This document shows, piece by piece, positions 6,066 through 32,595 of a stretch of 32,595 nucleotides of DNA. Source of the DNA: Candidatus Schekmanbacteria bacterium (lineage in GTDB: Bacteria; SZUA-182); the NCBI GenBank assembly GCA_016235675.1, contig JACRJN010000118.1, positions 1 through 32,595 on the forward strand, written 5' to 3'. The translations under genes were made by a program, and so were the position numbers. Numbering within the stretch: the stretch's first letter is position 1; each line of letters opens with the position of its first letter. The notes under the pieces were generated by a model. It did not search any database. It saw only the letters and a list, made by a program, of their open reading frames with translations, and was not told the DNA's origin.

Positions 6066-6604
6066 TGGCGCGTTTGTTGGAAAAATATAGAAAAGAGGTT
6101 GTTCCGGCCATGATGCAAAAGCAGGGTTACAAAAATTCTCTGCAAGTTCCCCGTTTAGAGAAGATTGTAATTAATATGGGCGTGGGCGAGGCGATTCAAA
6201 ATGCTAAGGCGCTGGATGCTTCTGTCCATGTGATGACCAGGATTTCCGGACAAAAACCGGCGGTAACCAGGGCGCGTAAATCGATTGCGAATTTTAAATT
6301 GCGGGAAGGCATGGCGGTAGGCTGTAAAGTAACCTTACGCGGTAAGCGGATGTATGAATTTTACGATAGATTGGTTAATGTGGCTTTACCGCGCGTCAGG
6401 GATTTTAAAGGAATTTCCCCGAAATCTTTCGATGGAAGGGGTAATTTTGCTTTTGGCTTACAAGAGCAATTAGTATTCCCTGAAATTAATTATGATGAAA
6501 TAGACCGTTTAAGGGGTATGGATATAATTATTGTAACCACGGCTAAAACAGATGACGAAGCCAGAAATATGCTGGCGCTTCTGGGAATGCCATTTAGGAA
6601 ATAA
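6065..6604 (+). CDS. rplE: 50S ribosomal protein L5
   Basis: L5 of 179 residues, beginning [19 protein letters not shown]. Conserved blocks are [35 protein letters not shown] and [21 protein letters not shown]5 binds 5S rRNA and contacts the P-site tRNA. I chose the ATG at 6065, behind GGGGAG (6051-6056) and overlapping the rplX stop by one base, rather than a GTG 18 bases upstream that would add six non-conserved residues. Confidence 0.96.
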
Positions 6605-6619
6605 GCGGGGGTACAAGTT

Positions 6620-6805
6620 TTGGCCAGACTAGCGCTTAAAGTAAAAGCTGAGAGAAAACCCAAGTTCAGTGCAAGAAAATATAATCGGTGCCCATTATGC
6701 GGGCGGCCAAGAGCTTTTTTACGCCGTTTCGGTATGTGCCGTATTTGTTTTCGCAACATGGCGTCGCGCGGTGAAATACCCGGCGTAACTAAAGCCAGTT
6801 GGTAA
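6620..6805 (+). CDS. rpsZ: 30S ribosomal protein S14, zinc type
   Basis: The 61-residue length and the two CxxC pairs (Cys24/Cys27 and Cys40/Cys43) mark the short zinc-binding form of S14, as opposed to the roughly 100-residue zinc-free form. The end, [13 protein letters not shown], is typical. The start is TTG at 6620, giving [26 protein letters not shown] lies upstream (6606-6611). S14 is assembled late into the 30S head. A zinc-free paralogue could exist elsewhere in the genome but is not seen here. Confidence 0.95.
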
Positions 6806-8867: not shown

Positions 8868-9313
8868 TGCAATTACATGATCTAAAACCTGCTGATGGTT
8901 CGACCAAGAAGCGCAAAAGAATAGGCAGAGGACCGGGATCAGGTCATGGAAAAACTGCCTGTAAAGGACACAAAGGTCAGAAGGCGCGTACCGGGGCACG
9001 CACTAAAAGGGGCTTCGAGGGTGGTCAGATGCCGCTTATCAGACGTATTCCTAAGCGCGGGTTCACCAATATATTCCACAAAGATTACGAAATTGTGAAG
9101 CTAAGTCATTTGGAAACGTTCGAGGCCGGAACGGTTGTCACCCCGGAGTTGTTATTATCTAAGGGTTTCATTAAAAACACCAAGAGTATTTTTAAAGTTC
9201 TGTGCAATGGCGAATTAACCAAGAGCGTAACGGTCATGGCACATAAATTTTCCGATACCGCTAAGGAAAGGATCGTTTCCTGCGGCGGCAAAGTGGAAAT
9301 TATAGCAAATTAG
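8867..9313 (+). CDS. rplO: 50S ribosomal protein L15
   Basis: L15 of 148 residues. The basic, glycine-rich N-terminal extension ([20 protein letters not shown], then [20 protein letters not shown]) and [13 protein letters not shown] identify it. This extension penetrates the 23S rRNA core during late assembly. The gene overlaps rpmD by one base. It is followed by a 32-base gap before secY, the usual order in the spc operon. Confidence 0.97.
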
Positions 9314-9345
9314 AGTATAAACGGGGCTAAAATAGGTAGATTGAC

Positions 9346-10650
9346 TTGTTAGAAAAGTTACAAAATATATTTAAAATACCGGAATTAAAGAGAAAAGTTT
9401 TAATCACCTTAGGCCTGTTGACAGTTTATAGAATCGGGGCGCATATCCCGACGCCGGGAATAAACGGAAAAGCGCTGGCGGCGTTTTTTTCCTCGACCCA
9501 GGGAACGTTGTTGGGTTTTTTTGACATGTTTTCCGGCGGGGCATTAAGTCGTTTGACGGTGTTTGCCTTGGGAATAATGCCCTATATCGATGCAGCCATT
9601 ATTTTGGAGTTGTTGACGGTGGTATTTCCTCTTTTGGAGCGCTTGGCTAAAGAAGGGGAACAAGGGCGTAAAAAATTAACCCAATATACCAGATATGGGA
9701 CGATTTTTATTGCGATAATTCAAGGATTAGGAATAAGTTTCGGTTTAGAAGGGATGAAAGGCCCAAGCGGGGAAATGGTAGTGATTAATCCCGGTTGGGG
9801 TTTTCGTGTTATTACCGTTATCACCTTGACGGCAGGTACCGCATTCATAATGTGGCTGGGCGAGCAAATAAGCGAGAGGGGTATCGGCAACGGGATTTCC
9901 TTAATTATATTTTCCGGTATAGTAGTGCGGGCGCCTGCTGCAATCATCAATACCTATCGTTTGGTGAGCACCGGTGAAATGCAGCTTTTCGTAGTGTTAA
10001 TACTCTTAGTGATTATGGCGCTGGTTATCGCTTCAATAATTTTTGTAGAGAGCGGCGAGCGGCGTGTAATGGTTCAATATGCCAAAAGGGTGGTAGGCCG
10101 CAAAATGTACGGTGGGCAGAGTACGCATATTCCGTTAAAGGTTAATACGGCAGGGGTTATACCGGTTATATTTGCCTCCTCGATTATCATGCTGCCGGCA
10201 ACGTTAGCCCGGTTTGTAGCTCATCCCTGGGCGCAGAAAATCGCGGACTTATTATCGCCGGGCAGTGTTTTAAATAGCTTGCTATATGTGATATTTATAA
10301 TTTTCTTCTGTTATTTTTATACCGCGATAGTTTTCAATCCCATTGATTTAGCCGATAATATGAAGAAATACGGTGGGTATATTCCGGGAATCAGGCCGGG
10401 GAAAAGCACGGCGGAGCATATTAATAAGATTTTAACCCGGATAACCTTTGCCGGTGCCATCTACTTAACTTTGATAACGTTATTGCCGACTTTTATGATC
10501 AAATTAATGAATGTACCGTTTTATTTCGGCGGCATAGCCTTATTAATAGTCGTGCAAGTGGCGTTGGATACCGTACGGCAGACCGAATCGCATTTAATGA
10601 TGCGTTATTATGACGGTTTTATGAAAAAAGCGGGAATGAGAAAAGCCTAA
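9346..10650 (+). CDS. secY: Protein translocase channel subunit SecY
   Basis: SecY of 434 residues is the inner-membrane channel of the Sec translocon, working with SecE, SecG and SecA. The N-terminal TVYRIGAHIPTPGIN, the plug region around FFDMFSGGALSRLTVFALGI, the loop RVMVQYAKRVVGRKMYGGQS and the C-terminal PIDLADNMKKYGGYIPGIRP followed by GKSTAEHINKILTR are standard SecY motifs. About ten hydrophobic segments are visible. The start is TTG at 9346, giving MLEKLQNIFKIPELKRKVL. The gene lies between rplO and adk as in many bacteria. Confidence 0.97.
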   Translation: MLEKLQNIFKIPELKRKVLITLGLLTVYRIGAHIPTPGINGKALAAFFSSTQGTLLGFFDMFSGGALSRLTVFALGIMPYIDAAIILELLTVVFPLLERLAKEGEQGRKKLTQYTRYGTIFIAIIQGLGISFGLEGMKGPSGEMVVINPGWGFRVITVITLTAGTAFIMWLGEQISERGIGNGISLIIFSGIVVRAPAAIINTYRLVSTGEMQLFVVLILLVIMALVIASIIFVESGERRVMVQYAKRVVGRKMYGGQSTHIPLKVNTAGVIPVIFASSIIMLPATLARFVAHPWAQKIADLLSPGSVLNSLLYVIFIIFFCYFYTAIVFNPIDLADNMKKYGGYIPGIRPGKSTAEHINKILTRITFAGAIYLTLITLLPTFMIKLMNVPFYFGGIALLIVVQVALDTVRQTESHLMMRYYDGFMKKAGMRKA

Positions 10651-23413: not shown

Positions 23414-25087
23414 GTGGAAAACCAGACGTTCAAGCCGCTTGGCCAAAGACTTATCGAACAAGGTGTTATCAGCAAGGCGCAACTGGATTTGGCCTTGGAA
23501 GAACAAAAACGCACCGGCGATTATTTAGGCGAGATTTTACAGCGCCTGGGATTTGTTACCGAAGCGCAGCTTACCTTTTGTTTAGCCGATCGCATCGGCG
23601 CCGCCTCCATTAAATTAAAAACGGTTTCCATCCCCTCCGAAGCCCTCAAGCTTGTTCCGGAGACTTTCGCCCGCTCACACAGATTAATTCCCGTCAATTT
23701 AGTAAATAATCTGCTTACCGTAGCCATGGTCGATACTGTCGATGTGGTGACCATCGATGAACTGCGCCGCCTGACCAAATGCCATATCGAGGTCAAATCC
23801 GCCACTCACGGTGACATCCTCAAGGCTATCGAAAAATATTACGCCGAGGAAGTGGTCGACGAGGACATCGAGAAGATCATCACCGAGGCGGAAAAGATCA
23901 GCGCCGACAAGAAAGAAGACGAGAGTTTGGCCGTCCCGATCATTAAACTGGTAGAGCAGATTTTATACCGCGGCATCAAGATGGGCGCCACCGATATTCA
24001 TATCGAGCCGGACGAATTGGTAATGCGCACCCGCTACCGTATCGACGGGGTGATGCAGCAAGGCCCCTCATTTCCCAAAAAGCTGCAATCGGCAATTATT
24101 ACCCGCATCAAAATTATTTCCGACCTGAACGTTTCGGAAAGCCGTATCCCACAGGACGGTAAAACCCGTTATACCATCGGCCAGAAAAAGATTGACATGC
24201 GCGTCTCCACCCTGCCCGCCATCTTCGGCGAGGCGATCGTCATTCGTATTCTGGATCGCGCCAAGGTCTTGGTCGGTTTGGCAAACCTGGGTTTTTTCGA
24301 TAAAGACCGGGCGATTTTCAATGACCTGATTGAGCGCCCTAACGGGATTATCCTGGTTACTGGGCCTACCGGTTCGGGGAAAACCACCACTCTCTATACC
24401 GCCTTAGGCAGCATCAACTCCCTGGAAAAGACGGTTATCACCCTGGAAGACCCGGTGGAATACGAGCTTTCCACCATTCGCCAGTCGCAAATCAACGTCA
24501 AAGCGGGAATGACCTTTGCTGCCGGGTTACGGGCGATTTTGCGCCAGGACCCGGACGTGATTCTGATCGGTGAAATGCGTGATAAAGAGACGGCGGAAAT
24601 GGCGGTGCGCGCCGCTTTGACCGGCCACCTGGTCTTTTCCACCCTGCATACCAACGACGCCCCCAAAGCCATCCCCCGTTTGGTGGATATGGGAATTACG
24701 CCCCTGCTGATCTCCTCCTCAGTGATTGCCATCATCGCCCAGCGCCTGGTGCGCATAATCTGCGAGGATTGCAAGGTGGAGGGCGAACCCAATATGCAGT
24801 TGGTGAAAAAGTTCAATCTGGAGGAGCGGCTGGATTTTTCCCAGCCCTTTTATAAAGGCAAGGGCTGCCCGGTTTGCAACAACATCGGTTTCAAAGGACG
24901 GCGGGCGATCTTTGAAATCCTGGTGATGAATGCCGAAATCAGCAAGTTGATTATCAACGATATAGACCCGGATAAAGTCAGAGCGGTAGCCAGTCAATCC
25001 GGTATGCGCTCCATGCTTGATGACGGCCTGGTTAAGGTGCAGGCCGGGATGACCACCCTGGATGAGGTGTTAAGGGTGGTGTTTTAG
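23414..25087 (+). CDS. gspE: Type II secretion / type IV pilus assembly ATPase (GspE/PilB)
   Basis: The 557-residue hexameric ATPase powers pseudopilus or pilus extension at the inner membrane. An N-terminal MshEN/GspE_N domain begins LGQRLIEQGVISKAQLDLAL. Walker A is GPTGSGKTT at about 317, the Asp box LEDPVEYE follows, Walker B is in PDVILIGEMRDKETAEMAVR (Glu387), and the His box is GHLVFSTLHTNDA. Two CxxC pairs (Cys450/453 and Cys485/488) form the zinc domain typical of GspE and PilB rather than the retraction ATPase PilT. The start is GTG at 23414 behind GAAAGGG. Confidence 0.95.
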   Translation: MENQTFKPLGQRLIEQGVISKAQLDLALEEQKRTGDYLGEILQRLGFVTEAQLTFCLADRIGAASIKLKTVSIPSEALKLVPETFARSHRLIPVNLVNNLLTVAMVDTVDVVTIDELRRLTKCHIEVKSATHGDILKAIEKYYAEEVVDEDIEKIITEAEKISADKKEDESLAVPIIKLVEQILYRGIKMGATDIHIEPDELVMRTRYRIDGVMQQGPSFPKKLQSAIITRIKIISDLNVSESRIPQDGKTRYTIGQKKIDMRVSTLPAIFGEAIVIRILDRAKVLVGLANLGFFDKDRAIFNDLIERPNGIILVTGPTGSGKTTTLYTALGSINSLEKTVITLEDPVEYELSTIRQSQINVKAGMTFAAGLRAILRQDPDVILIGEMRDKETAEMAVRAALTGHLVFSTLHTNDAPKAIPRLVDMGITPLLISSSVIAIIAQRLVRIICEDCKVEGEPNMQLVKKFNLEERLDFSQPFYKGKGCPVCNNIGFKGRRAIFEILVMNAEISKLIINDIDPDKVRAVASQSGMRSMLDDGLVKVQAGMTTLDEVLRVVF

Positions 25088-25088
25088 A

Positions 25089-25242
25089 AGGCTTCAGGCT
25101 CTGGGCTTCAGGCTTTAGGCTAATTTTGTTTTGGTTTGTCCCCAAGCCGAAACCGTAAATAGATAACGTTAGTTTCGGTGTGAGAACGCACCGAGACACT
25201 AAATGTTTTAGCCTGAAGCCCGAAGCCTAAAGCCCAAAGCCC
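25089..25242. repeat. Heptamer-armed palindrome enclosing two family B copies
   Basis: The arms 25089-25122 and 25209-25242 are inverted copies of AAGCCYR heptamer arrays, matching at 27 of 34 positions. All seven differences are transitions and fall mostly at the last two positions of the heptamer. Between them lie two family B palindromes, at 25128-25153 (GTTTTGGTTTGTCCCCAAGC followed by CGAAAC) and 25172-25197 (GTTTCGGTGTGAGAACGCAC followed by CGAGAC). The whole fills the gspE-gspF gap and ends about 10 bases before the gspF ATG. Confidence 0.85.
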
Positions 25243-25251
25243 GGAGAACCT

Positions 25252-26457
25252 ATGCCCAAATACACATACCACGCCAGAAACGACGACGGTGACAAAATCA
25301 GCGGAGAGCTTTTGGCCAATGACCTGGATGAATTGACGGAAAAGCTGGAGGGGATGAATCTGTTCCTGATTTCCGCTAAAGAAGCGCATGAGGTCAAAAG
25401 CTACACCCTGTCCAAAAAGGTTAAGCGCAAGGATTTGTTGACCTTCACCATCTATCTGAATACCTTGATTTCAGCCGGTGTGCCCCTTCTGGTCGGGTTG
25501 CAGCAGATTGCCGAGCAGACGGAAGACCCGTATTTCAAAAAAGTAATCTTCTCTATTTTGGATGATATTAGGGGCGGACGCAACATTTCGGAAGCCATGG
25601 AAAAGCATCCTAAGGTTTTCGATGGATTGTATACCAGCGTGATCAAGGCCGGGGAAAGTTCCGGCAGCCTGGAAATGGTGCTCAATGACCTGGCGGCTTT
25701 TCTGGAATGGCAGGATGATTTGAACAAAGAAGTCAGAAAGGCCACGGTTTACCCCTGTGTTTTGCTGGGTACGGTAGGCTCGCTGGTACTGGTGCTGATT
25801 GTTTTCGTTTTCCCGCGGTTTATGAAAATGTTTACCGACATTAATATGGACTTGCCCGGCCCGACCCTATTGGTAATTTCCTTAAGTACCTTCGTGAATA
25901 ATTATTGGCATTTGTTGATTGGCAGTTTAGTAACTTTCATCGTTTCCTATAAAGTGGCTTACCGCTACGACCAGGGGCGGGTGTTTATCGACAGATATAA
26001 GATGCACCTGCCGATTGTAGGGGTCTTGGTGACCAAGATCGCGGTTTCCCGCTTTGCCCATTACCTGGGCTTGATGCTGCGCGCCGGGGTAAGCCTGGTC
26101 GAGTCTTTCGAGATCGTGGAAAAAGTAGTCGGCAACGCCGCTATCGCTCAGGTTGTCCATTCCATGCGGGATATGGTATTAGGCGGCGAGAAAATCTCCC
26201 AGGCCATGGAAAGATATACCGAGTTTCCGCCGTTGGTGGTGCAGATGATCGCGGTGGGGGAAATGAGCGGCAAGCTGGAGGATAATCTGAACAAAGTCTC
26301 CAAGTTCTATGACCGGGAAGTGCCGGAGACGATCCACAAAACCCTGGGAGCGATTCAGCCGCTGATGATTGTTTTCATGGCCGGCGTGATAATCATCATC
26401 GCTCTGGCTATCTTTTTACCGATGTTTCAAATGGCCGGAGCGGCTAAGAAGGGATGA
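25252..26457 (+). CDS. gspF: Inner-membrane platform protein GspF/PilC
   Basis: At 401 residues this matches the GspF/PilC family, a polytopic platform that links the ATPase to the growing pseudopilus. Two T2SSF repeats are seen: the first around LTFTIYLNTLISAGVPLLVG and ESSGSLEMVLNDLAAFLEWQ, the second around RFAHYLGLMLRAGVSLVESF and VGEMSGKLEDNLNKVSKFYD. Three hydrophobic segments are clear (near residues 170-190, 215-235 and 370-390). CCCGGAGAACC precedes the ATG. The stop overlaps an ATG (ATGA) that opens the next reading frame. Confidence 0.94.
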   Translation: MPKYTYHARNDDGDKISGELLANDLDELTEKLEGMNLFLISAKEAHEVKSYTLSKKVKRKDLLTFTIYLNTLISAGVPLLVGLQQIAEQTEDPYFKKVIFSILDDIRGGRNISEAMEKHPKVFDGLYTSVIKAGESSGSLEMVLNDLAAFLEWQDDLNKEVRKATVYPCVLLGTVGSLVLVLIVFVFPRFMKMFTDINMDLPGPTLLVISLSTFVNNYWHLLIGSLVTFIVSYKVAYRYDQGRVFIDRYKMHLPIVGVLVTKIAVSRFAHYLGLMLRAGVSLVESFEIVEKVVGNAAIAQVVHSMRDMVLGGEKISQAMERYTEFPPLVVQMIAVGEMSGKLEDNLNKVSKFYDREVPETIHKTLGAIQPLMIVFMAGVIIIIALAIFLPMFQMAGAAKKG

Positions 26458-27599
26458 AGGGTGAAGGGATGAAGGGTGAAGGCGAAAGGATGAAAGAATT
26501 TTTTACATGGGCTTTCGGGTTGTCCTCAAGCCGAAAGCAAACAGAGGAACTGTTTCGGCTTGAGAACAAGCCGAAACACCAGAAGGTCATTGCGAGGCAG
26601 CCGTATCGCCGAAGCAATCTCAGACGCACGGGTAGAGATTGCTTCGCTCCGCTCGCAATGACGCTGGATGTCGATGTTTCGGTGTGTCCTCACACCGAAA
26701 CCCAGCAAGGGGTAACGTTCCCTCTTGTCGCTTTCGGCTTGAGGACAAGCCGAAAGACCGGGAGTCGGGGCTTTTCCCTCCTGGAAATCCTGGTCGTCAT
26801 GACCATTATCGCCATTCTGGGGGCGACTTTGGCTCCGGCGGCCTTTCAGATAATAGACGATTCCCGTGAGAGTGCCACGCGGGCGGAAATGGAGTCCAAC
26901 CACCGAGCGATAGTGGGCGATCCGCATCAAGGTCAGTACGGTTACGCGGCTGATTTGGGCGGATTGCCCACATCCTTGGCGGATTTGAATACCAATCCGG
27001 GAGCGCCGGTTTATAACGGCGATAATCTGCTGGGCATCGGCCTGGGCTGGAACGGGCCTTACATCAACAGCGGTTATGCCGCCAACAATTATTTGCTGGA
27101 CGCCTGGGGGCGGGATTATCTCTACGATTCCAATACCGGACAAATAACCAGTTTAGGCTCGGACGGGTTACAGGCCACCCATGACGACCTTGTCGTCCCC
27201 GCAACAGCGGTAAGCGTGCGCGGGGATATTTCAGTAACGGTGACGGTAGCCGATGGCCAAAACTCCAAAGTAACCAGAAACTTAGGTAACGATGCAGCTT
27301 CGGTCTGGATTTATTATTCAGCAAACGGGGAGGAGCAAAACGCCGCCGCAGTCTGGGATAATAATAATCAGGCATTTACTACTTATAGCTGGACAACCCA
27401 TCCCCATCAGGGGATGCACGCGGTAAAAGTCATCGGCCTGGATAATTTTTCCGGAACTGAAGCGGTAACCGAGGCATTGGTTTATCGGGGAACGACTTTT
27501 ATCAATGTCTTTCTGGGATTTTTCGATCTTAATCAAGGCAACAATGGAAACGGAAATGGCAACGGCCCGGACGGTACGGGGCCGCCGGGGCAGAATTAA
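26454..27599 (+). CDS. Third pseudopilin with repeat-derived N-terminal extension and Ig-like tail
   Basis: The frame is open for 381 codons from an ATG overlapping the gspF stop. The first about 95 codons are repeat DNA: a 15-base direct repeat (MKGEG twice), a family A copy and four family B palindromes. The pilin proper starts at the cleavage site SRG|FSLLEILVVMTIIAI near residue 107. A TTG at 26739, inside the last palindrome, would give an 11-residue leader but has no ribosome binding site; an ATG at 26658 is another option. After the pilin domain (WNGPYINSGYAANNYLLDAW) comes a beta-rich, Ig-like stretch, ending in a Gly/Asn-rich tail. It is probably a minor, GspG- or GspH-type subunit. 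The true start is unresolved. Confidence 0.72.
   Translation: MKGEGMKGEGERMKEFFTWAFGLSSSRKQTEELFRLENKPKHQKVIARQPYRRSNLRRTGRDCFAPLAMTLDVDVSVCPHTETQQGVTFPLVAFGLRTSRKTGSRGFSLLEILVVMTIIAILGATLAPAAFQIIDDSRESATRAEMESNHRAIVGDPHQGQYGYAADLGGLPTSLADLNTNPGAPVYNGDNLLGIGLGWNGPYINSGYAANNYLLDAWGRDYLYDSNTGQITSLGSDGLQATHDDLVVPATAVSVRGDISVTVTVADGQNSKVTRNLGNDAASVWIYYSANGEEQNAAAVWDNNNQAFTTYSWTTHPHQGMHAVKVIGLDNFSGTEAVTEALVYRGTTFINVFLGFFDLNQGNNGNGNGNGPDGTGPPGQN
26511..26578. repeat. Two family B palindromes
   Basis: GCTTTCGGGTTGTCCTCAAG followed by CCGAAAGC lies at 26511-26538, and TGTTTCGGCTTGAGAACAAG followed by CCGAAACA at 26551-26578. Arms of about 11 bases flank a 4-6 base loop. Both lie within the reading frame of the third pseudopilin extension. 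Confidence 0.85.
26586..26662 (+). repeat. REP-like palindrome, family A, copy 2
   Basis: This copy runs from GTCATTGCGAGGCAGCCGTA to GCTCGCAATGAC. It is 77 bases, with inner arms GAAGCAATCTC and GAGATTGCTTC. It lies within the extended reading frame of the third pseudopilin and supplies the in-frame ATG at 26658. Confidence 0.9.
26676..26756. repeat. Two family B palindromes abutting the pilin leader
   Basis: GTTTCGGTGTGTCCTCACAC followed by CGAAAC occupies 26676-26701; CTTTCGGCTTGAGGACAAGC followed by CGAAAG occupies 26731-26756. The arms differ between the two (TGTG/CACA against CTTG/CAAG) but stay complementary. The second ends only 18 bases before the codon of the mature pilin N-terminus, so it has replaced any native start region. 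Confidence 0.88.
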
Positions 27600-27823
27600 A
27601 TAATCGAGGTACGAGGTACGAAAAAGTCATTGCGAGGCAGCCTTATCGCCGAAGCAATCTCCAGCCGCACGAATGGAGATTGCTTCGCTTCGCTCGCAAT
27701 GACATTTTATAATGATGTAATGGATGTCTCGGTGTGTTCCCACACCGAAACAAAAATGGTGGGCACAGCCCACCCTACAAGCCTGAAGCCCGAAGCCTAG
27801 AGCCTAACGCCAGGTATTTCACC
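27600..27823. repeat. 224-base gap of five stacked repeats
   Basis: In order: a CGAGGTA heptamer array (27605-27621), family A copy 3 (27626-27703), a family B palindrome (27726-27751), a family C GGTGGGCACAGCCCACC element (27758-27779) and an AAGCCTG/AAGCCCG heptamer array (27779-27811). There is almost no unique sequence; the short ribosome binding site AGGT lies immediately after. The reading frame of the following gene is open back to 27734 through these repeats. Confidence 0.88.
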
Positions 27824-29455
27824 ATGTTTCTCAAATCAAAAAACATCTTAGCCCTGGAAATATTGCCCGGCAAGGTCAATATCGTGGAAGGGGTGCGCTC
27901 TTCCCGCCAGATCAAGGTGCTCAATTACTTGCAGCTTACCAATCTGCCGGATTCCCCCGAAGAAACGGGGAAATTAATCGCGGTCGCCCTCAAAGAAAAA
28001 GGGGTCGCCGCTAAATCGGTTTATCTCTCCCTTTATGATTCACAGATTGAGCAGACCTTATTACAAACGCCGGTTTTATCCAAAAAAGAATTGCAACTGG
28101 TGGTTAAAAGGGAGGTCAAAAAAATCCGGGACAAAGGGAACGACAAAAAGCCTGAAGAGGCAAAAGACAGGCAGGAGGGCAAAAACGGCAAAACAACCAG
28201 GGAGCCGGAAAAGAAAGGCCCGGAACTGTATTTCGATTATCAGGTTTTAGCTGAAATCACCCAGGAAAAGACCAAAAAGAAAAGCCTGCTTTTAGCTACC
28301 GCCCCCCAGCCGTTAATCGATAAATACGTCAAAATGCTGGACGCCGCCGAATTATCCCCACTGGTGATCACCGCCTCCCCCTTGGCCCTAATCAATGCTC
28401 AGGGCTTGATTTCCCCGCTGCTGAAAGACTCATCGGCGGAAACCAATAATTTGGCCATTCTGCACCTTTTGCCGGACAAAGGGCTGCTGGTAATTTTGAA
28501 CCAGGGGATTTGGCGCTTCTTCCGCGAACTGCCCTTGGTATATAAACCCCAGACAGAAGAAAGCAAGGCTAACATCCTTGATTATCAGCAACTTATTACC
28601 GAAGTAAACCGCTCATTTCTTTATTTTAATCAGGTAGAACGCGGCAAAAGGGTTAACGGATTAATCATCAGCGCCGATTTTGAATTACCGGATGAGATGG
28701 CGTATACCTGCTCCTCCCAATTGCAAGTCTCCGTGGCTTCTTTCGACCCGGCGGAAAAATTGAATTTACCGGGCACCGATGAGTTTAAAAACTTCAGCCC
28801 GCAAGCAAAAACGCTGCCTGTTGTTTTAGGATTGTTGGTCGAGGGCGGCAATCAGCTTACCCTGAATTTCCTGCCCTGGCAGATTCGGGAGCGCAAAAAG
28901 CATGTGGCCGGCAAGGTGGTCATCGGCTTGGTTTTTACCGGCTATGTCGTGGCGATCGTCGCGGGCTATGGCGCTCTAAGCTGGGCGCAGGAAAATTACC
29001 GCCAGGCCGTCGATAGCCAGAAATTAAATCTGGAACAGATGCGCCCTCAGCAGGAGGAGAAAAAAAGACTTTCGCAGGAACAACAGGGACAGGAGTTCCG
29101 GCGCACGGTATTACAAAAATTTGAGCGCAAATCACCGCTCTGGCGCGGGCTGCTTGTTGAATTCAATCAATTGTTGCGTCCCGGTTTAATTTTTAGTTCT
29201 CTGGAAATAACCGAGGGTGAGAAGGAAACCTGGCAGCTTAAGGCCAGCGGAACAATCGATGCTGCCACATCCGGGGAAGCACAGCAGACTTTAAAAGAAT
29301 ATATGGAAAATATGAAGCAAGCGGTTTTCTTCAGCCAGCCGGAGGTGCTGGAAGTCAAGATCGTCCCCTACAAGCCGGAAGCGAAGGGACAAACGCCTGA
29401 CGGCAATTTTAACGCCCGGCTGGGATTTACGCTGAGTTGTTTTGTACGGTATTAA
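27824..29455 (+). CDS. GspL-like PilM-PilN fusion protein
   Basis: The 543-residue protein has a cytoplasmic actin-like PilM-type part, starting KNILALEILPGKVNIVEGVR, with a charged Lys/Glu insert at about residues 100-130. One membrane segment follows at about 361-383 (VVIGLVFTGYVVAIVAGYGA), then a periplasmic PilN-like part with a coiled stretch (QQEEKKRLSQEQQGQEF). This matches GspL, which recruits the GspE ATPase, and equals separate PilM plus PilN in type IV pili. I chose ATG 27824 because the 30 residues encoded upstream are repeat DNA (heptamers and family C) and AGGT lies 8 bases before. Confidence 0.85.
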   Translation: MFLKSKNILALEILPGKVNIVEGVRSSRQIKVLNYLQLTNLPDSPEETGKLIAVALKEKGVAAKSVYLSLYDSQIEQTLLQTPVLSKKELQLVVKREVKKIRDKGNDKKPEEAKDRQEGKNGKTTREPEKKGPELYFDYQVLAEITQEKTKKKSLLLATAPQPLIDKYVKMLDAAELSPLVITASPLALINAQGLISPLLKDSSAETNNLAILHLLPDKGLLVILNQGIWRFFRELPLVYKPQTEESKANILDYQQLITEVNRSFLYFNQVERGKRVNGLIISADFELPDEMAYTCSSQLQVSVASFDPAEKLNLPGTDEFKNFSPQAKTLPVVLGLLVEGGNQLTLNFLPWQIRERKKHVAGKVVIGLVFTGYVVAIVAGYGALSWAQENYRQAVDSQKLNLEQMRPQQEEKKRLSQEQQGQEFRRTVLQKFERKSPLWRGLLVEFNQLLRPGLIFSSLEITEGEKETWQLKASGTIDAATSGEAQQTLKEYMENMKQAVFFSQPEVLEVKIVPYKPEAKGQTPDGNFNARLGFTLSCFVRY

Positions 29456-29467
29456 ATGTTGTCGGTT

Positions 29468-29539
29468 GTCATTGCGAGCGGAGCGAAGCAATCTCGTGCG
29501 CTTGAGATTGCTTCGGCGATACGGCTGCCTCGCAATGAC
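29468..29539 (-). repeat. REP-like palindrome, family A, inverted copy 4
   Basis: GTCATTGCGAGCGGAGCGAA through GGCTGCCTCGCAATGAC is family A in the opposite orientation to the other three copies. It is framed by GTTGTCGGTTGTC (29458-29470) and ACCGACAACCAACAAC (29547-29562), so the two repeat types are combined. It fills the gap between the GspL-like gene and the next gene. Confidence 0.88.
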
Positions 29540-29574
29540 ATTTTAACCGACAACCAACAACGGAAGTTAAAACC

Positions 29575-30231
29575 ATGGAAAAACAAAAAGGCTTTCTCCC
29601 CTATATCATCGGTTTAACGGCCTTTATCGCCATAAGCCTGGCCGGTATTTATATAAAACTTTACCGCCCGATGATTCAGTATATCTTGTCGGCCAGGGGG
29701 CAGATGGAGGAAATAAAGAAGGCATTGGCCGACATTGCGCTTTCGGAACAATCTCCCGTTTCTGCCGCCAAAGGGGAAGAGAGAAAAATCGAGGGGACTA
29801 AAGAGCAATTTTGCCAGCGTTTTCCCCCTCCGGAAACATTGCCCAAATACATGACTTTTCAGGGTTCCGGCAATTTGTTTTACGGTGAGGGAACATCCTT
29901 GCAGCAAGATGTCCCCGCGGTCTTTAAAGACTTAGCCAACGCTTTTCTGCAATCGGGCGGCAATCAATTGAACTTGCTGAATGCCACCGAGGAGGAAGCG
30001 AAACTGAAGCTTCCCGGTTCTGATGATGGGGGAAAAGCCAGGGAGCTAAAAGAGTATAAGCTGATGCTTTCCTTTACCGGCGAATTTCGGCAGGTTGCAG
30101 ATTTTTTGGGATTGATCCAAAAAATGCCGCGTTTTACCAAGATAAGCAATATCACCCTGAAGGCGGATAAATCGGGTTTAAAAACCTCTATTATACTTAA
30201 GACTTATCATTTTCCGCAGGATGGGGCATAA
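29575..30231 (+). CDS. GspM/PilO-like inner-membrane assembly protein
   Basis: A 218-residue protein with a short cytoplasmic start, one membrane helix at about residues 8-27 (LPYIIGLTAFIAISLAGIYI), and a periplasmic part. The segment LKEYKLMLSFTGEFRQVADF followed by LGLIQKMPRFTKISNITLKA is the ferredoxin-like fold typical of PilO (type IV pili) or GspM. It would bind the periplasmic part of the PilN/GspL-like protein encoded just upstream. GGAAG precedes the ATG. The next gene starts directly after the stop. Confidence 0.8.
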   Translation: MEKQKGFLPYIIGLTAFIAISLAGIYIKLYRPMIQYILSARGQMEEIKKALADIALSEQSPVSAAKGEERKIEGTKEQFCQRFPPPETLPKYMTFQGSGNLFYGEGTSLQQDVPAVFKDLANAFLQSGGNQLNLLNATEEEAKLKLPGSDDGGKARELKEYKLMLSFTGEFRQVADFLGLIQKMPRFTKISNITLKADKSGLKTSIILKTYHFPQDGA

Positions 30232-30807
30232 GTGTTTAAAAACAAGAAGATGATCGTAATCTTGGTGGTGATAATGGTTATTTCACTGTTCGCCAACTGG
30301 AAATATATCTTTCCGGAAAAAAAGAAGCCCAATGTGGTAACCGCCGAGGATGTTCAAAAAAGCAGCGGCACGGCAACGGCGGCCAAGGTGGAGATGTCTT
30401 CAAGTAAGAAGAAAGATAAGGGAAAAAAAGAGCGGCCCAAGGATGAAACACCGGTGGATTATGCGAAGATGCTGGCCTTATCGGAAGAAGATGATTGGAG
30501 CGGTGATCCCTTCGCGTTATTAAAGCTTATGGCAGTGAAAAATGTCGATGCCGCGGCGCTACAACCGGTTAGTGAGCCTGGAGAGGGAAAAGAAGAATCG
30601 GTCGAACTGCGGCTGGAATCTATTCTGGTCACTCCCTTCGGCGGGATTGCAGTGATTAACCGGCAATCATTAGAAAAGGGGGATGAGATTTCCGGCGGCA
30701 AAATCATGCGCATTACCCCGCAGACGGTTTATTGGGAAAAGGACGGGAAGACCAGGGAGCTAACGTTACCGGAGGATAAGATACCGCTGTCCTGGGTGAG
30801 GGAATAA
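30232..30807 (+). CDS. PilP/GspC-like periplasmic connector protein
   Basis: A 191-residue protein with GTG start right after the previous TAA, behind GGATGGGGC. One N-terminal membrane helix (MIVILVVIMVISLFANWKYI) is followed by a Ser/Lys-rich linker and a C-terminal beta domain (LRLESILVTPFGGIAVINRQ, then KIMRITPQTVYWEKDGKTRE). That domain resembles the homology region of GspC and PilP, which contacts the N0 domain of the secretin. Its place between the GspM-like gene and the secretin supports this. Exact subfamily is uncertain. Confidence 0.7.
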   Translation: MFKNKKMIVILVVIMVISLFANWKYIFPEKKKPNVVTAEDVQKSSGTATAAKVEMSSSKKKDKGKKERPKDETPVDYAKMLALSEEDDWSGDPFALLKLMAVKNVDAAALQPVSEPGEGKEESVELRLESILVTPFGGIAVINRQSLEKGDEISGGKIMRITPQTVYWEKDGKTRELTLPEDKIPLSWVRE

Positions 30808-30816
30808 TCCCAAACT

Positions 30817-30867
30817 GGTAGCACAGGCTTCCAGCCTGTGATTCGCAGGCATGATGCCTGTGCTACC
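30817..30867. repeat. GTAGCACAG double palindrome
   Basis: A 51-base element closed by GGTAGCACAGGC (30817-30828) and its complement at 30856-30867. It contains CACAGGCTTCCAGCCTGTG (30822-30840) and GCAGGCATGATGCCTGTG as two internal palindromes. The same GTAGC(A/G)CAGACC outer motif occurs at 21399-21422 and 21550-21573. It lies 14 bases before the secretin ATG, leaving little native sequence for a ribosome binding site. Confidence 0.85.
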
Positions 30868-30881
30868 GAAGACGAAATGGC

Positions 30882-32471
30882 ATGAAAACGTTATTAATAT
30901 TATTGATTCTTATTTGGCCGTTACCCGCCAGCGCTCAATCCGCGGCAGGCGGCAAGGGAAAAGACTTGCCTGCCGAAGACGCTAAAGACTTTTCCGGAGT
31001 CAAAATTCACCAGAAAGAAGTCACGCTGCCGGCGCAAAGCAAGGTGGAAATCCTTTATTCCTGGAGTTTGCGGGACGCCGACATCCATGACGTGCTGCTA
31101 AGTTTCGCTAAAGGTAGTAAGATCAATATTATCGTCGATCCGGGGGTAGAGGGTAAAGTAACGGTCGATTTGAACATGGTCAGTTTCGACAAGGTGCTGA
31201 ATTATCTGCTTGCCCCTTTGGGTTTGGAATATACGCGCGAGGAAAATTTCATCCGGGTTTTTAAGCCCCGGCAAAAGACCAAAATCTTTCAATTGGATTA
31301 CGTCAACGCCCAGCGTATCGGCAAAGGTTCGCTTTCCATCAGCGCCGGAGGGGGCGAGGGTGGGATTAAATCCACCAGTTCGGCCTCTATCGAAAATACC
31401 ACCACTACCGATTTTTGGGGAACGGTGATCGATGCCCTGAACACTATCGTTTTTGCAGAAAAAGGTACGGTGCAGTTGGGCGCGGGCGGTTCTTTCAGTA
31501 AAAAAGACACGTTAGGGAAAACCTTGATTGTCAATCCTCACTCAGGGGTAATTTTGGTTACCGACACGGAGGATAAACTTCAGGAGGTCGAAGATTTCAT
31601 CCATACGATACAGGCATCCATCCAGCGGCAGGTACTGATACAGGCCAAGATTGTAGAGGTAACCTTATCCGATGATTTCGAGATGGGGATAAACTGGAGT
31701 TATGTGGCCGATTTCCCGGAATGGTCGCGGCTATCCGGCGCTCTCACCAATGGTGCGGCTTTTGCCCAAACCCTGCTGCCCTCCCCGGAAAGCAAGGTCT
31801 TTCAACTGGGGGTAAGTAGCCAAAAAACCTCAGTACTTTTAGATGCCATGGCCAAACAGGGCAACGTCAATATCCTGTCCAGCCCGCAGATTGTGACCCT
31901 CAACAATCAGACGGCCATGATCAAGGTTACCCAGGAGAGCGTTTATTTCCAGGTTACTACTTCTGTAGAAACTGACACCAATACCCAAACCCAAACGGTA
32001 GAATCCAAAACTATTGATGTGGGAATTGTCCTGGACGTTACCCCGCAGATCAGCGACGCGGGATTAATCACCCTCAATATCCATCCCAGCATCAGTGAGA
32101 TAGTGGGAGAAGCCGTTTCCAAATTGGGAGACACCAGACCGATTATAGACCGGCGGGAGACCAATGCCGTAGTCAAAGTCAACGACGGGCAGACCATCGT
32201 TATGGCCGGGTTGATGAAGGAAAAGCAGCGGGAGGATTTAAAAAAGGTGCCCTGTCTGGGGGATATTCCCTTTTTGGGTGCCTTTTTCCGCCGCACCGTG
32301 CAGGAAAAAGCCAAGGTGGAGTTGGTTGTTATGCTGACCCCGATCGTGTTAAACGAAAGCCGCATCGACAAGATTCAGCAGATAAAATCCAAACAGATTG
32401 AAGATACCAAACAGGAAATGCACTTAGGTCTCCCGCCCCTTGAAAAGGCCGCCGAGCGGGAATGGAAGTAA
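30882..32471 (+). CDS. gspD: Secretin (GspD/PilQ family)
   Basis: The 529-residue outer-membrane channel begins with a signal peptide (MKTLLILLILIWPLPASA, cleavage after Ala18; no lipobox). An N0/STN-like domain follows (LRDADIHDVLLSFAKGSKIN), then an N1-type domain and the secretin barrel from about residue 255 (RQVLIQAKIVEVTLSDDFEM). The end has RRETNAVVKVNDGQTIVMAG, VPCLGDIPFLGAFF and VELVVMLTPIVL, the classic secretin signature. It has fewer N domains than most GspD. The last residues (PPLEKAAEREWK) nearly repeat in the convergent gene at the window edge. The ribosome binding site is weak (GAAGACGAA). Confidence 0.93.
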   Translation: MKTLLILLILIWPLPASAQSAAGGKGKDLPAEDAKDFSGVKIHQKEVTLPAQSKVEILYSWSLRDADIHDVLLSFAKGSKINIIVDPGVEGKVTVDLNMVSFDKVLNYLLAPLGLEYTREENFIRVFKPRQKTKIFQLDYVNAQRIGKGSLSISAGGGEGGIKSTSSASIENTTTTDFWGTVIDALNTIVFAEKGTVQLGAGGSFSKKDTLGKTLIVNPHSGVILVTDTEDKLQEVEDFIHTIQASIQRQVLIQAKIVEVTLSDDFEMGINWSYVADFPEWSRLSGALTNGAAFAQTLLPSPESKVFQLGVSSQKTSVLLDAMAKQGNVNILSSPQIVTLNNQTAMIKVTQESVYFQVTTSVETDTNTQTQTVESKTIDVGIVLDVTPQISDAGLITLNIHPSISEIVGEAVSKLGDTRPIIDRRETNAVVKVNDGQTIVMAGLMKEKQREDLKKVPCLGDIPFLGAFFRRTVQEKAKVELVVMLTPIVLNESRIDKIQQIKSKQIEDTKQEMHLGLPPLEKAAEREWK

Positions 32472-32494
32472 ATTGACAATGGTCTCACCAGGTT

Positions 32495-32546
32495 GGAGTA
32501 GGGACTTTAGTCCCGTGAATCCGCACGGGACTAAAGTCCCTACTCC
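32495..32546. terminator. Perfect palindrome between convergent genes, possible terminator
   Basis: GGAGTAGGGACTTTAGTCCC plus GTG (32495-32517) and its perfect 23-base complement (32524-32546) flank a 6-base loop. TTTT follows at 32547-32550 on the plus strand, so it may end secretin transcription. Each arm itself contains a GGGACTTTAGTCCC palindrome of the CTTTAG-centred type found elsewhere in the window. No U-tract is seen for the minus strand. Confidence 0.6.
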
Positions 32547-32548
32547 TT

Positions 32549-32595
32549 TTACTTCAGTTCCCGCTCGGCGGCCTTTTCAATGGGCGGGATAACCA
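32549..32595 (-). CDS. C-terminal end of a convergent gene sharing the secretin tail (partial)
   Basis: Read on the minus strand, the window edge encodes VIPPIEKAAERELK followed by TAA at 32551-32549. This closely matches the secretin end PPLEKAAEREWK, and the DNA (41 bases including the stop) differs at about 3 positions. It is either the 3' end of a second secretin or related gene in tail-to-tail orientation, or a decayed inverted duplication of the gspD end. Only 15 codons are visible, so the protein itself cannot be identified. Confidence 0.55.
   Translation of the reverse strand, partial: VIPPIEKAAERELK

Follow-up and report, generated by a model that had tools for sequence, protein, structure and literature searches.

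During library preparation, inverted repeats and palindromes give rise to fold-back chimeric reads that carry mismatched bases (PMC10908179). In this ‘PDSM’ model a read runs through a natural inverted repeat and continues as its own reverse complement, mismatched bases included. The locus described here may be a case of the same kind, although the model was described in human libraries and the present case is seen as a contig end. Illumina errors, too, become more frequent close to inverted repeats and GGCGGG motifs, with A–C and G–T transversions predominating (PMC4719071).

Three other kinds of element bear comparison. Bacterial MITE and REP/BIME repeats are, like the hairpin at this locus, short, palindromic, non-coding and multi-copy, and often nested in other repeats. 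Intrinsic terminators share with it a G+C-rich stem 3′ of a stop codon and a short T run, here on the + strand; the stem at this locus (23 bp) is longer than usual, however, and its T run is just four. The S-domain of secretins, a C-terminal region that binds pilotins, was proposed in the first-pass annotation of this DNA, as the stretch common to both sides of the hairpin is the C-terminus of a secretin. In this genome, however, the tail occurs on one protein only, and the end of the nearest ortholog differs.

Secretin gene and contig terminus

The window, by which we mean the whole 32,595-nt stretch of DNA analysed, is the entire contig C81, one of 190 in a draft genome of 2.98 Mb that is 89.65% complete. 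Because the window is a complete contig, the sequence stops 6 bases past the inverted repeat, at position 32595; this contig end lay beyond the view of the first-pass annotation. The features of the locus are collected in Table 1.

Table 1. Features at the 3′ end of contig C81 (coordinates of the window)
Feature	Coordinates	Strand	Basis
Secretin gene, 529 aa, MshL/PilQ/GspD family, last in a type IV pilus/MSHA-like operon	30882..32471	+	Pfam, NCBIfam, upstream genes
Left arm of wide imperfect repeat, covering the secretin 3′ end with its stop codon and some of the spacer	32431..32485	+	Inverted-repeat search; same DNA at C65 end
Hairpin core GGAGTAGGGACTTTAGTCCCGTG-AATCCG-CACGGGACTAAAGTCCCTACTCC, dispersed-repeat copy, terminator-like on + strand (T4 tail)	32495..32546	.	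Inverted-repeat, pattern and terminator scans
Terminal inverted copy of secretin tail, apparent ...VIPPIEKAAERELK-stop; read as probable fold-back artefact, not gene	32547..32595	-	Inverted repeat, C65 comparison, end survey

Pfam identifies the gene product as a secretin (Secretin, E 2.4e-47, plus STN and N0). The name gspD, under which the gene was first annotated, fits less well: the best NCBIfam match is MshL, at 234 bits against a cut-off of 250, and the protein is nearer to MSHA-pilus MshL than to GspD, yet falls under the curated cut-offs of both. It is preceded in the operon (23414–32471) by genes for T2SSE/MshEN, T2SSF, pilin-like, PilM-like and PilO proteins, a composition closer to that of an MSHA-type pilus cluster than to a classic type II secretion operon.

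The palindrome reported at first pass behind the secretin stop codon is perfect: its arms (32495–32517 and 32524–32546) are 23 nt each, 100% complementary, and separated by a 6-nt loop. In a wider inverted repeat, the left arm of Table 1 pairs with 32535–32589, over 55 nt and at 84% complementarity. As RNA, positions 32430–32595 fold at −127.5 kcal/mol against −52.8 ± 4.4 in shuffled sequences (z −17), a stability far in excess of chance. A consensus scan of the + strand 3′ of the secretin scored a terminator with the tail TCCTTTTACT, and the G+C-rich stem-loop with its T run could act as an intrinsic terminator of the gene. Rfam returned only sub-threshold matches for the hairpin, mostly to microRNA precursors, as would be expected of any long hairpin.

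Beyond the hairpin, C81 closes with ~49 bases that repeat the 3′ end of the secretin in inverted form (84%); their minus strand reads PPIEKAAERELK-stop. By eye, the minus strand of 32550–32592 gives VIPPIEKAAERELK-stop and the secretin itself ends in GLPPLEKAAEREWK-stop. The near-identity of the two at the DNA level, noticed at first pass, is borne out: 23 consecutive bases are identical, and the arms differ at 3 of the 42 best-aligned bases, rising to about 6 in 45–49 when the comparison is carried to the contig end. By eye, most of these differences sit in the first or second codon position and alter the encoded residue; they look like errors, unlike the differences of a conserved protein tail. 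A 19-nt pattern from the tail, searched with up to 3 mismatches, has exact copies at 32442, inverted at 32560 and in the last bases of contig C65, and nowhere else in the assembly.

The hairpin as a dispersed repeat

The palindrome belongs to a family of dispersed hairpin repeats that is common in this genome, a fact that the first-pass annotation had no means of seeing. The pattern GGAGTAGGGACTTTAGTCCCG has 44 hits in the genome at ≤3 mismatches, two per intact copy, and its reversed control has none. At ≤2 mismatches the hairpin pattern is absent from the 10 other genomes tested, and exact matches to a 28-base version were sought in the genome collection and not found. Secretin peptide patterns likewise yielded nothing in that collection, and the plasmid and phage collections gave no match.

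Alignment of 23 hairpin cores showed three settings: several cores lie within longer elements whose ends are of the TAGTACAGCATCC type, others occupy a second type of element with ends like ATACTAATTCGCTATCAAA, and still others are solitary. The core, 48–52 bp, is nested in the first element type on C100, C172, C49, C125, C32 and C30, in either orientation, and in the second, with its different terminal inverted repeats, on C108, C85, C28 and C127. It seems, then, to be mobile by itself or common to element families. The window copy differs from a MITE in that the outer TAGTACAGCATCC ends, found around other copies, are missing. Nor was a link to the Y1 (RAYT) transposases of REP/BIME repeats found: the four Y1_Tnp matches in the genome (on C54, C185, C78 and C67) are all on contigs without hairpin hits, and a RAYT link was rejected on this ground.

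A second contig ends at the same hairpin

Contig C65 ends (6540–6652) with this tail, spacer and hairpin too, arranged as in C81 and 88% identical over 113 bases. Both contigs end at this locus, and they diverge directly after the hairpin. Past the hairpin C65 has no inverted tail; a 60-aa ORF follows, together with a gene for a PEP-utilizing enzyme (ppdK-like), both pointing toward the secretin. No clear relative of the small ORF turned up in the class. The terminal bases of C81, for their part, continue in no other contig, the secretin tail itself aside. C65 is most likely the true continuation of C81.

The 13 substitutions that separate C65 from C81 include no transitions; most are T>A. As a reference we took the 3,274 pairs of repeats in this genome that differ by 8 or more substitutions. 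Transitions make up 55% of their substitutions, and 11 pairs have none. The C65/C81 pair has the most substitutions of these 11 and is the most extreme of the 3,274 (P about 3e-5, assuming independent substitutions). Hairpin copies at C101:10017–10074, C80:12273–12346 and C65:6540–6652 carry clusters that are all, or nearly all, transversions with respect to their closest relatives in the genome, many of them T>A and C>A. The clusters fit hairpin-related error; those on C101 and C80 lie inside contigs, so a biological cause is possible as well. At the C65/C81 junction the consensus is poor.

Contig ends were surveyed for overlaps. Exact 141-base overlaps with another contig terminus were found at 26 of the 175 ends sampled, which suggests de Bruijn assembly at k=141. 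The C81 end has no such overlap, and the C65 end overlaps the C81 end alone, by 38 bases. Contig C15 (L067) starts with a perfect, loop-free palindrome of 142 bp (positions 1–142), probably another fold-back or assembly artefact. Inverted repeats scoring ≥20 occur at 38 of 112 contig ends and in 38 of 240 internal stretches. They are frequent genome-wide, and one at a contig end proves nothing by itself; the case for a fold-back rests on C65 and on the absence of any further copy of the tail.

Origin of the inverted tail

The last ~49 bases of C81 are probably a fold-back, made in sequencing or assembly at a hairpin repeat that is itself real, with C65 the true neighbour. A very stable hairpin, a member of the dispersed repeat family, sits 3′ of the secretin stop, and short-read assembly broke there. 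A strand passing through the hairpin would fold back, whether in library preparation, sequencing or assembly, and recopy the 3′ end of the secretin in reverse. At the junction, the right flank CTCC-TTTT would meet ATTTACTTCC of the reverse-complemented gene end (ATTTAC) through TTT microhomology, and the jump would skip the 22-nt spacer. The product would be about 49 bases of noisy inverted sequence ending C81, and the real genomic order would be hairpin, small convergent ORF and ppdK-like gene, as on C65. The fold-back step itself, and C65 as the true neighbour, we infer. What it leads one to look for was found: the inverted copy extends to the contig end beside the hairpin, and the same locus has an alternative continuation, the C65 end.

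Some points weigh against a fold-back. Ideally the copy should be exact; about 6 differences in 45–49 bases are many for an assembled consensus, and hairpin-related errors have to be invoked to account for them. Also, the mostly T>A changes of C65 are not the commonest Illumina confusions. The first-pass annotation took the mismatches as an argument against a trivial artefact, an argument that fails: both contig ends at the hairpin carry substitution clusters that do not look like natural divergence, and fold-backs with mismatches have been published (PMC10908179). Of the causes it listed, the third (inverted duplication or assembly fold-back) is supported, as a fold-back at a hairpin at a contig end, and the second secretin and the shared C-terminal tag are not.

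It is unlikely, though conceivable, that the inverted tail is a genuine short duplication, present in the genome or in one strain, for which in vivo template switching copied ~45 bases in reverse; C65 would then represent another strain or arrangement. The strong hairpin and the TTT microhomology at the junction would suit such an event, the arms would owe their differences to mutations accumulated since, and one draft genome does show both arrangements. Against this, the secretin tail is found in no third setting, C81 ends 6 bases past the inverted copy, and the pattern of substitutions does not match the way sequences naturally diverge in this genome. The stronger version, in which template switching took place in the cell at a mobile hairpin behind the secretin and the substitution clusters reflect hairpin-driven mutation instead of sequencing error, we regard as quite improbable.

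That a second convergent gene, for a secretin or for another protein with the same C-terminal tag, ends at the edge of the window is very doubtful, despite a 14-residue frame that closes with a stop codon and replacements of the L/I type. Identity over 23 DNA bases, combined with differences that mostly change amino acids, misfits conservation at the protein level. A protein search of the assembly for other bearers of the tail, the check proposed at first pass, found this gene and one weak secretin match without the tail. The latter, the only other secretin match in the genome, is on C25; it is 28% identical overall and its alignment stops before the tail, and it was rejected as the second secretin. 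A shared tag was rejected likewise, since the DNA pattern at ≤3 mismatches is restricted to C81 and C65, chance 3-mismatch hits aside. The genome is 90% complete, however, and the missing tenth could contain a genuine second copy of the tail.

The nearest relative likewise argues against a second gene. The nearest ortholog of the secretin, in genome G003, is 68% identical, ends in HIGVPPHAEGIKGEFKSD and lacks the hairpin. It does not share the tail, and it faces a DUF5658 gene, not a convergent secretin. On the G003 contig, C278 (L051), this membrane-protein gene (9234–9755) overlaps the secretin end tail-to-tail. The best DUF5658 match in the present genome, C155:2981–3415, adjoins an unrelated convergent ORF and so does not reveal the true continuation of C81. 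The ‘tail-to-tail gene’ of the first-pass annotation is thus not supported, as no other gene bears the tail, the DNA itself is what is shared, and the ortholog's tail differs.

Least probable of all, and largely refuted by the lack of further arm copies, is that 32431–32589 as a whole forms a transposable element, bounded by long terminal inverted repeats, from which the secretin gained its last codons: the hairpin core is indeed dispersed, with several copies inside longer TAGTACAGCATCC-ended elements, but the outer arms, which hold the secretin tail, have no further copies in the genome, and the tail aligns with that of the G003 ortholog up to the PP motif, which marks it as native.

Implications

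With the hairpin a common repeat of this genome and the inverted tail a likely fold-back, the finding becomes an ordinary one. Were the inverted tail a true duplication, it would illustrate, on a small scale, template switching at a mobile hairpin. As a probable fold-back, it removes a false lead, that of a tail-to-tail secretin pair or of a pilotin tag shared between proteins, and it carries a caution: inverted gene ends beside hairpins at the termini of short-read contigs need to be checked for fold-back before genes are called in them.
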